From the NCBI RefSeq assembly GCF_001544615.1, contig NZ_FCNV02000011.1:124001-188000 (forward strand): 64,000 nucleotides of DNA, in the 5' to 3' direction. The notes under the pieces were generated by a model. That model made no database searches, had not been told where the DNA came from, and worked only from the letters and a program-made list of their open reading frames with translations. How positions within the stretch are numbered: position 1 is the first letter of the stretch; each line of letters begins with the position of its first letter. Below are positions 62,252 to 64,000 of this stretch, one piece after another. A program made the translations under genes and the position numbers. This DNA is from Caballeronia concitans (lineage in GTDB: Bacteria; Pseudomonadota; Gammaproteobacteria; Burkholderiales; Burkholderiaceae).

Positions 62252-62270
62252 TCGCCGCTCGCGTCGGATC

Positions 62271-62310
62271 AAAAAAGCCCTGCTTCCTCGTGAACGCAGG
62301 CTTTTTTTTC
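62271..62310 (+). terminator. Intrinsic terminator after the NlpC/P60 gene
   Basis: AAAAAGCCCTGC pairs with GCAGGCTTTTT with one bulged base, and a run of eight T follows. Confidence 0.85.
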
Positions 62311-62379: not shown

Positions 62380-62408
62380 TTGCACGCGCTACTAAAAGCC
62401 GTTATAGT
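62380..62408 (+). promoter_or_regulatory. Promoter of the leuA leader
   Basis: TTGCAC (62380-62385) and TATAGT (62403-62408) are 17 bases apart. The start of transcription is predicted near 62415, which coincides with the first base of the leader ORF. Confidence 0.6.
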
Positions 62409-62414
62409 TTTCGA

Positions 62415-62501
62415 ATGAACTTTTCTTCGTTCCCCCTCTCGTCTTTCCTGGCTGGTGCGTCGCTACGCGCACTATCGCTACTAGCGCCGCTCGCGCGCTG
62501 A
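62415..62501 (+). CDS. Candidate leucine leader peptide (leuL-like)
   Basis: A 28-codon ORF starts at ATG 62415 and ends at TGA 62499-62501. The peptide is MNFSSFPLSSFLAGASL followed by RALSLLAPLAR, with seven leucines. Four of them use CTA (62463, 62472, 62478, 62481) within seven codons, a codon I did not notice in leuA itself or in neighbours that I scanned. The E. coli leuL peptide likewise clusters leucine codons of the CUA type. The ATG falls at the predicted transcription start, so the leader would be leaderless, like trpL of Sinorhizobium. No ribosome site is present. This is inference from codon content and position. Confidence 0.55.
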   Translation: MNFSSFPLSSFLAGASLRALSLLAPLAR

Positions 62502-62629
62502 TTCTTCTCGCCTCCCGTCTGCTCGTTCAAGGTTTTCGACGCCAGCGGTGGCGCGAACACCCGGATTCCGTTTTGTCGTTTCATCCCGATACTCCCGACA
62601 ATCAATAAATCTCCCCACAGGAGCCGAAC
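62502..62629 (+). promoter_or_regulatory. Candidate attenuator region upstream of leuA
   Basis: A local hairpin CGCCA/TGGCG occurs at 62540-62553, followed about 20 bases later by a T-rich stretch. An alternative pairing exists between GCGCC plus GCT in the leader ORF end (62484-62491) and the same right arm (62544-62554). Mutually exclusive pairings are what attenuation needs, but I see no textbook terminator. Confidence 0.4.
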
Positions 62630-64000
62630 ATGGCAGCAGACAAGTTGATCATCTTCGATACGACCTTGCGCGACGGCGAGCAGTCCCCCGGCGCTTCGAT
62701 GACGAAGGACGAAAAGATCCGCATCGCGAAGCAGCTTGAGCGCATGAAGGTCGACGTGATCGAAGCGGGTTTCGCCGCCAGCTCGAACGGCGACTTCGAC
62801 GCGATCCACACGATCGCATCGCTCGTGAAGGACAGCACGGTTTGCTCGCTCGCGCGCGCCAACGACAAGGACATCCAGCGCGCCGCCGATGCGCTCAAGC
62901 CCGCCAACCAGTTCCGCATCCATACGTTCATCGCCACTTCGCCGCTGCATATGGAGAAGAAGCTGCGCATGTCGCCGGAGCAGGTGTACGAACAGGCGCG
63001 GCTCGCTGTGCGTTTCGCGCGCAAGTTCACCGACGACGTCGAGTTCTCGCCGGAAGACGGCAGCCGCTCGGATATCGACTTTCTGTGCCGCGTGCTCGAA
63101 GCGGTCATCGACGAAGGCGCGCGCACGATCAACATCGCCGATACCGTGGGTTACGGCGTGCCGGAACTCTACGGCAACCTCGTGAAGACGCTGCGCGAGC
63201 GCATTCCGAATTCCGACAAGGCGATCTTCTCCGTCCACTGCCACGACGACCTCGGCATGGCCGTGGCCAACTCGCTCGCGGGCGTGCAGATCGGCGGCGC
63301 GCGTCAGGTGGAATGCACGATCAACGGCCTCGGCGAGCGCGCGGGCAATACGTCGCTCGAAGAAATCGTGATGGCGGTGAAGACGCGCAAGGATTACTTC
63401 GGTCTCGATGTCGGCATCGATACGACGCAGATCGTGCCGACTTCGAAGCTCGTGTCGCAGATCACCGGCTTCGTGGTGCAGCCGAACAAGGCGGTGGTCG
63501 GCGCGAATGCGTTCGCGCACGCGTCGGGCATCCATCAGGACGGCGTCCTGAAGGCGCGCGACACCTACGAAATCATGCGCGCGGAAGACGTGGGCTGGAG
63601 CGCGAACAAGATCGTGCTCGGCAAGCTGTCCGGCCGCAATGCGTTCAAGCAGCGTCTGGAAGAACTCGGCGTGGCGCTCGAATCCGAAGCCGACGTGAAC
63701 GCCGCGTTCGCACGCTTCAAGGATCTCGCCGACCGCAAGGCCGAAATTTTCGACGAAGACATCATGCAGATCGTCTCCGAGGAATCGGCGGAAGCGCAGG
63801 CCAAGGAACATTTCCGCTTCGTTTCGATGAAGCAGCATTCGGAAACCGGCGAGCAGCCGCAAGCGAAGGTCGTGTTCGCGGTCGAAGGCACGGAAGTGAC
63901 CGGCGAGGCGCGCGGCAACGGTCCGGTCGATGCGACGCTGCACGCGATCGAATCGAAGGTGGATAGCGGCGCCGAACTCGTGCTGTACTCGGTCAACGCG
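62630..64000 (+). CDS. leuA: 2-isopropylmalate synthase, 3' end outside window
   Basis: LeuA condenses acetyl-CoA with 2-oxoisovalerate, the first committed step to leucine, and is feedback-inhibited by leucine in the family. The start is ATG 62630 ([21 protein letters not shown]), preceded by AGGAG. Visible motifs are the metal/substrate block [28 protein letters not shown] with HxH metal ligands and [14 protein letters not shown]; the regulatory LeuA-dimer domain is partly present ([18 protein letters not shown]). 457 codons are in the window and the frame is open at the edge. A full protein of about 515 residues is expected. Confidence 0.97.

Follow-up and report, generated by a model that had tools for sequence, protein, structure and literature searches.

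A candidate leucine attenuator with a leaderless leader peptide upstream of leuA in Caballeronia concitans and related Betaproteobacteria

The stretch of DNA analysed here (the window, 64,000 nucleotides from the 6.17 Mb genome of Caballeronia concitans) ends within leuA, the gene for 2-isopropylmalate synthase, which begins at 62630, runs off the window at 64000, and matches the NCBIfam models NF002087 and TIGR00973 above their cut-offs. Among the named genomes of the collection searched, those of Caballeronia stand nearest, with 96-97% identity in LeuA. On the same, forward strand as leuA lie a promoter at 62380..62408, in which a 17-nt spacer separates the -35 box TTGCAC (62380-62385) from the -10 box TATAGT (62403-62408), and a leuL-like open reading frame (ORF) of 28 codons at 62415..62501 (MNFSSFPLSSFLAGASLRALSLLAPLAR). 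The gene upstream of the promoter we take, from its sequence, to be NlpC/P60-like. Between that gene and the promoter an inverted repeat, GCCCTGC/GCAGGC, with a T run, can be seen by eye at 62270-62308, and is probably the terminator of the NlpC/P60-like gene.

Leucine occupies seven of the 28 codons of the leader ORF, as CTC at 62436, CTG at 62448, CTA at 62463, 62472, 62478 and 62481, and CTC at 62490. The four CTA codons are codons 17, 20, 22 and 23 (62463..62483) and, given their sequence and the share of CTA among wider relatives, are the presumed control codons. The ATG at 62415 is the seventh base after the -10 box, with 6 nt between them, and the ORF closes with TGA at 62501. No Shine-Dalgarno motif precedes the window leader ATG, and the transcript is predicted to start on the A of that ATG, which would make the leader leaderless. 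A reading of this DNA from its letters alone (the sequence-only reading) had described the promoter spacing, the length of the ORF, its seven leucines and the four CTA within seven codons, and all are there in the sequence. It had also judged CTA to be very rare in this DNA; in the 35 long ORFs of the window, 37 of 1545 leucine codons are CTA (2.4%), and the binomial probability of at least four CTA among seven leucines is about 1e-5.

Results

The leader ORF is conserved as a translated frame

Conservation of the ORF and its CTA codons in close relatives had been proposed as a check, and this conservation was found. LeuA was detected in 55 of 58 genomes of the genus, and the upstream region could be read in 53 of these, L135 and L136 being the two that could not be placed. 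An intact leader is present in 50 of the 53, with three to six CTA codons and, in nearly all, a 6-nt gap to the -10 box. The frame is disrupted in L020 and L120, and the ATG is lost in L029. These genomes measure 4.2, 3.7 and 3.9 Mb, respectively, and their broken leaders may reflect loss of control in shrinking genomes; the leader of L114, another genome of 3.9 Mb, is intact.

The wider clade to which the window belongs (clade A) has Caballeronia, Paraburkholderia, Burkholderia and Trinickia as its named members. Among 88 selected members of this clade, six distinct indels fall within the leader ORF, with lengths of 3, 6, 9 and 12 nt only; indels outside it have many lengths, 1 or 2 nt being the most frequent. 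For these indel counts and the codon counts below, the three broken loci (L020, L029 and L120) were left out, L195 and L246 were removed, L085, L093 and L100 were counted with the Comamonadaceae group instead of clade A, and L028, L031, L177 and L189 were added by hand. This pattern of indels indicates selection on the leader ORF as a frame that is translated.

The leaders are also enriched in CTA. This codon makes up 377 of 623 leucine codons (60%) in the selected clade A leaders, 80 of 119 (67%) in those of Cupriavidus-like loci and 82 of 163 (50%) in those of the Comamonadaceae group; in the leuA genes themselves it accounts for 14 of 2901 (0.5%).

A strict consensus scan of the window for promoters returned none, so that the leader promoter went unlisted and support for it must come from a conserved distance between the -10 box and the ATG. 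A leader with a gap of 6-7 nt and at least one CTA was picked in 163 of 216 distinct upstream regions, but the picking score favoured CTA, a good -10 box and precisely this gap, so both the CTA and the gap counts are biased upward; the gap counts are partly circular, and the Comamonadaceae group was itself chosen on the 6-7 nt gap. Because of this preference the search was repeated without the promoter, for ATG-initiated ORFs of 14-50 codons with at least two CTA and at least four leucines, a rule in which selection on CTA remains. A qualifying ORF was present in 162 of the 216 regions. A good -10 box lay within 60 nt in 119 of these 162, and in 112 of the 119 it stood 6 or 7 nt before the ATG; the other 43 ORFs had no -10 box by the strict rule. 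A Shine-Dalgarno-like motif preceded 2 of 162 leader ORFs versus 143 of 148 leuA genes. The 216 regions include seven that belong to a second leuA copy (L137-L143), none of which has a leader, and exclude 15 of 252 loci that were not located by the LeuA motif. We conclude that the leader ORF with its promoter layout is not a chance feature.

The leader is absent, or lacks its leucine codons, in Paraburkholderia L039-L041, Pandoraea-like L043 and L201-L203, and Collimonas L045 and L048. In the Pandoraea-like loci a leaderless ORF remains at the same place but has few leucines and lacks CTA, which would fit a decayed sensor.

The leader accompanies leucine genes across the order

The specificity of this arrangement was examined in 80 named loci (563 kb, both strands), with totals unselected and with L057, which has 148 nt upstream, counted as a miss. 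Leaderless-type ORFs with at least two CTA numbered 58, spread over 58 loci with never more than one per locus; every one is on the strand of leuA and precedes leucine genes. Directly before leuA stand 51; the remaining seven (in L069, L071, L077, L082, L083, L097 and L098) lie about 1.9 kb upstream of it, and between them and leuA is a second, longer gene for 2-isopropylmalate synthase, identified from ORFs in five of the loci, from the N-terminus in L098 and separately in L077. Leaders before the inserted synthase gene can also be seen by eye in L061, L065, L066, L070 and L111, with gaps of 9-10 nt. Since the leaders precede the inserted gene, the leader goes with leucine genes and not with the upstream neighbour.

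In L065 the second synthase gene occupies 1243-2943 and is classed by NCBIfam as leuA_yeast; it has corresponding positions in L061, L066, L069, L070, L071, L077, L082, L083, L097, L098 and L111. The loci that carry it are of Variovorax, Polaromonas or Ramlibacter type, and in those other than L065 the gene was assigned by N-terminal likeness or by length. In Acidovorax-type L081 (21-88) and L087 (16-83), the Rfam ilvH RNA motif RF02993 occurs about 2.9 kb upstream of leuA.

An order-wide sample of 70 genomes, the window's own included, contained LeuA in 61. By a rule requiring an ATG 5-9 nt after a -10 box and at least five leucines with a run, again with unselected totals, 27 of 60 upstream regions held a leader, or 26 of 59 once the hit in the window-family genome L259 is set aside; the 60 include two loci with less than 200 nt upstream (L261 and L277). 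Applied to the reverse strand of the 60 regions and to 1554 control tiles, the same rule gave no hit in either set. About half of the sample has no leader by this fixed rule, and leucine-rich ORFs that fall outside it are also visible in L265 and L273. Many of the distant leaders have LLLRPAR or LLLRLAR at their end, with CTG as the main codon for leucine (106 of 199 leucine codons; CTA, 15). Thus CTA characterises the leaders of Burkholderiaceae, Comamonadaceae and groups close to them, whereas leaderless leucine leaders as such extend further. It looks like a widespread leucine sensor of Betaproteobacteria that would act by ribosome stalling.

No leader was found in eight loci (L297, L298, L305 and L308-L312); before leuA they have an ORF whose product is similar to small helix-turn-helix proteins (...DFGGPSALAEAF...AIYKWRERGS...). 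From open frames of about 600 codons, this ORF may be fused to LeuA.

Predicted RNA elements between the leader and leuA

Several elements were predicted on the transcript of the window. Hairpin P1 (GUGCG/CGCAC, 62455..62472, about -8.9 kcal/mol) lies in the ORF and spans the first CTA; hairpin P2 (62483..62499, -8.0 kcal/mol) forms at the ORF end and reaches the stop codon; a C-rich, G-poor tract follows directly after the stop (62502..62529); and P3 (62531..62561) is a local hairpin without a U-tract. From leader to leuA, an intrinsic U-tract terminator was found in 0 of 85 loci of the window clade by a first rule and in 0 of 88 by a second. Computational folding, another check that had been proposed, bore out the local hairpin, with P3 at -15.6 kcal/mol, but not the leader as a whole, whose folding in the window is unremarkable (z -0.66).

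In 42 non-redundant clade members, P1 is canonical in nearly all cells, with one slid control (0.96) almost equal, and P2 is 98% canonical, with slid controls at 0.18-0.52; the inner part of P3, at 0.96, was equalled by one slid control. Within clade A, no double changes were seen in P1, in P2, in the inner part of P3 or in either half of the leader-end/P3 pairing described below; two such cells occurred in outer P3 (only 65% canonical) and two in a helix inside the ORF. Covariation among these sequences is too thin to prove the helices. Against shuffled sequence, at most 3 of 30 shuffles equalled the best local hairpin in 21 of 25 clade A loci, hand-picked from the 88; the best hairpin was better than shuffles in 16 of 25 distant loci and 2 of 6 Oxalobacteraceae-like ones, and for Comamonadaceae every third locus was taken.

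Folding around a ribosome gave window P3 a probability of 0.86 with the ribosome at the stop codon, 0.53-0.74 with it stalled and 0.08 with no ribosome. The clade A means over 86 of the 88 loci were 0.83, 0.19-0.29 and 0.19, respectively. In this model the change runs in the direction expected of a terminator hairpin, but the hairpin's 5' arm shows no exchange of partners from the stalled to the finished state (0.71 versus 0.62). The end of the ORF had been claimed to pair with the downstream hairpin. By eye, 62484-62491 can indeed pair with 62544-62554, part of P3, but the computed probability, taken with the most favourable stall codon, is only about 0.02 in the window; it is 0.51-0.92 in 7 of 10 clade rows, with a mean of 0.38 over 86 loci.

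Beyond the clade, hairpins of at least seven pairs were found in 6 of 6 Oxalobacteraceae-like and 19 of 25 distant loci. Of these 25 hairpins 22 begin 24-47 nt after the leader stop, and none is followed by a U-tract (Oxalobacteraceae-like terminators, 0 of 6). A hairpin at the end of the ORF, with a stem of at least four pairs, occurs in 27 of 27 distant leaders, and was set aside as weak evidence, as 70% of shuffles have one. A possible pairing between a conserved CCUCC-like stretch and the Shine-Dalgarno box of leuA, looked at by eye, was not retained.

The C-rich tract is a possible loading site for Rho. With the windows of each intergenic region ranked by C minus G, the tract falls in the highest quarter in 71 of 88 clade members, in 6 of 6 Oxalobacteraceae-like loci and in 18 of the 19 distant loci long enough for the comparison. 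As a mark of the clades that lack a U-tract it failed, since it also occurs in 31 of 36 Comamonadaceae loci, where there is a U-tract terminator, and in 4 of 4 Polynucleobacter-like loci; it occurs in 0 of 24 Cupriavidus-like loci. The tract is therefore not specific, and its role as a target for Rho is one that we infer.

Some relatives carry intrinsic terminators after the same leader

In Comamonadaceae and Polynucleobacter-like loci, the leader is followed by a GC-rich hairpin and a U-tract. Two rules detected such terminators in 32 and 34 of 36 Comamonadaceae loci, in 4 and 4 of 4 Polynucleobacter-like loci, and in 14 and 3 of 24 Cupriavidus-like loci; in the last group the U-run is short, mostly GCGTTTTG, so that the rules miss some. 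By motif, the terminator arms are present in 35 of 36, 4 of 4 and 24 of 24 loci, respectively.

We folded the RNA up to the terminator loop or 3' arm with the ribosome stalled on the most favourable CTA. In this state the 5' arm of the terminator was paired upstream in 35 of 35 Comamonadaceae, 4 of 4 Polynucleobacter-like and 24 of 24 Cupriavidus-like loci; with the ribosome at the stop codon, it was so paired in 0 of 35, 0 of 4 and 7 of 24. When the upstream sequence was shuffled 100 times, the arm still paired equally well in 10-34 of the shuffles at 10 of 11 Comamonadaceae loci and in 0-25 at 8 Cupriavidus-like loci; the four Polynucleobacter-like loci (0-2) were the sole group to stand out. 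Folding of single sequences is accordingly weak evidence for a switch, and because pairing of a GC-rich arm is so common by chance in shuffles, codon constraint and comparison are the better evidence. In the leader segment that opposes the arm, the glycine codon is GGG in 32 of 32 Comamonadaceae loci (from 36, four of which lack the motif) and in 24 of 24 Cupriavidus-like loci, counts that come from related sequences and are not independent; GGG makes up 246 of 2628 glycine codons (9.4%) in leuA. Equilibrium folding of the full terminators was dropped, as the finished terminator nearly always wins.

Discussion

The sequence-only reading held that leuA is preceded by a translated, leucine-rich, leaderless leader with a rare CTA as its control codon, and comparison across relatives supports this. 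We interpret the region as a leucine attenuator with a leaderless leader, most likely ended by Rho in the window clade, and assign this interpretation a probability of about 0.8. Attenuation by leucine through a leaderless leader is, as far as comparative sequence analysis can speak, well supported.

Transcription would begin at the first base of the leader ATG, and the leaderless end so formed would be where a ribosome initiates. With ample leucine, the ribosome would pass the CTA codons, reach the stop codon and block pairing of the leader end; P3 would then form and transcription would end upstream of leuA. When charged tRNA-Leu is scarce, the ribosome would pause at the CTA codons, leader RNA in front of it would fold differently, P3 would be disfavoured, and RNA polymerase would proceed into leuA. 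We infer both the stalling and the direction of the response. For the terminating step in the window clade, our best guess is Rho, with the C-rich tract that follows the leader's stop codon as its target, given that this tract would be exposed once the ribosome leaves and that a U-tract is lacking. Salmonella corL and mgtL are Rho-dependent leader-peptide attenuators, and as in the scheme proposed here translation of the leader decides the access of Rho to downstream RNA, although the signals differ. Against Rho, a stalled ribosome would also expose the C-rich tract unless the leader end folds over it. Against a switch in the window itself stand the near-zero leader-end/P3 pairing, the considerable probability of P3 in the stalled state and its rarity without a ribosome.

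The leader could sense leucine and, in this clade, use another output than termination, namely mRNA decay or translation of leuA through the leader and P3. The lack of a U-tract throughout clade A and the Oxalobacteraceae-like loci, and after the 25 hairpins of the latter and the distant families, would suit such an output. We nevertheless consider it unlikely: P3 ends 57 nt upstream of the leuA Shine-Dalgarno sequence, an RNAalifold consensus of 29 clade members contains no pairing at that sequence, and relatives with clear terminators use termination on the same type of leader.

Less likely still is a reading in which a repressor or activator binds P3 as its DNA operator, with the leader as a separate, additional control. 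Within clade A the inverted repeat of P3 hardly varies and shows little covariation, as expected of a protein site, but it sits downstream of the promoter, and hairpins at a like place in distant families are unrelated to it in sequence, which suits RNA structure better. It seems very improbable that the small ORF arises incidentally from a promoter next to a GC-rich RNA element and that its translation is irrelevant. Its shortness and the Pandoraea-like loci, in which the leaderless ORF persists almost free of its signal, could be read in this way; the frame-preserving indels, the CTA bias and the runs of leucine found order-wide, with no match in either control, speak against it.

Attenuation of leu genes in enteric bacteria is textbook knowledge. 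Like the window leader, leuL of E. coli and Salmonella is a 28-codon leader before leuA with CTA as its control codon, the four CTA being consecutive in E. coli. The E. coli leader has a GGAG motif before its ATG, whereas the window leader has none and places its ATG at the expected transcript start. A leuL-like layout of attenuation had been claimed for the region; the leader with its leucine and CTA codons agrees with that claim, but leuL-type attenuators possess an intrinsic terminator, which the window clade lacks, and no change of partner is seen for the 5' arm of P3. As an intrinsic terminator is a defining feature of the classical attenuator, we class the region as a variant. In Salmonella, changing the leader CUA codons to CUG lowered sensitivity (Carter et al. 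1986, as summarised in PMC1183508).

For the leaderless start, the closest parallel is the rhizobial trpL. In Sinorhizobium meliloti, according to the description in PMC7298713, the leader RNA begins with the ATG of the ORF and is a small leaderless mRNA, as predicted in the window; unlike the window leader, trpL senses tryptophan, stands before trpE(G) in an alphaproteobacterium, and has a terminator between leader and gene. The actinobacterial LEU element, as outlined in PMC1262725, likewise places an ORF with leucine codons upstream of leuA. It differs in forming a pseudoknot in which the run of leucine codons pairs with the leuA Shine-Dalgarno sequence; the clade consensus, a method that cannot show pseudoknots, gives no sign of this.

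Rfam had nothing near its gathering score at the window leader and no leader hit in 25 relative loci, and no NCBIfam model matched three leader peptides. The main text of a study of B. cenocepacia transcript start sites contains no word beginning with 'leu'. The statement that no described leuA attenuator of this form was known in Burkholderiaceae agrees with the open-licence literature searched, in which we found no betaproteobacterial one; Vitreschak et al. 2004 and Lopatovskaya et al. 2010 may list betaproteobacterial leuA leaders.

For Betaproteobacteria as a whole, we tentatively suggest a history that we hold to be possible but doubtful: the leaderless leucine leader of leuA would be ancestral, the form without a U-tract (Rho, a C-rich tract and a hairpin) would be the original one, and Comamonadaceae, Cupriavidus and Polynucleobacter would later have gained U-run terminators while keeping the sensor. 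What distinguishes these leaders is the leaderless start, apparently set by the promoter, the change of control codon from CTA to CTG between families, and the retention of the sensor while the type of terminator differs. The relatives would thereby offer a natural series in which to study attenuation in the absence of a U-tract and the way in which leaderless initiation keeps up with RNA polymerase, and for non-pathogenic Burkholderiales the leader itself is a candidate leucine-responsive part.
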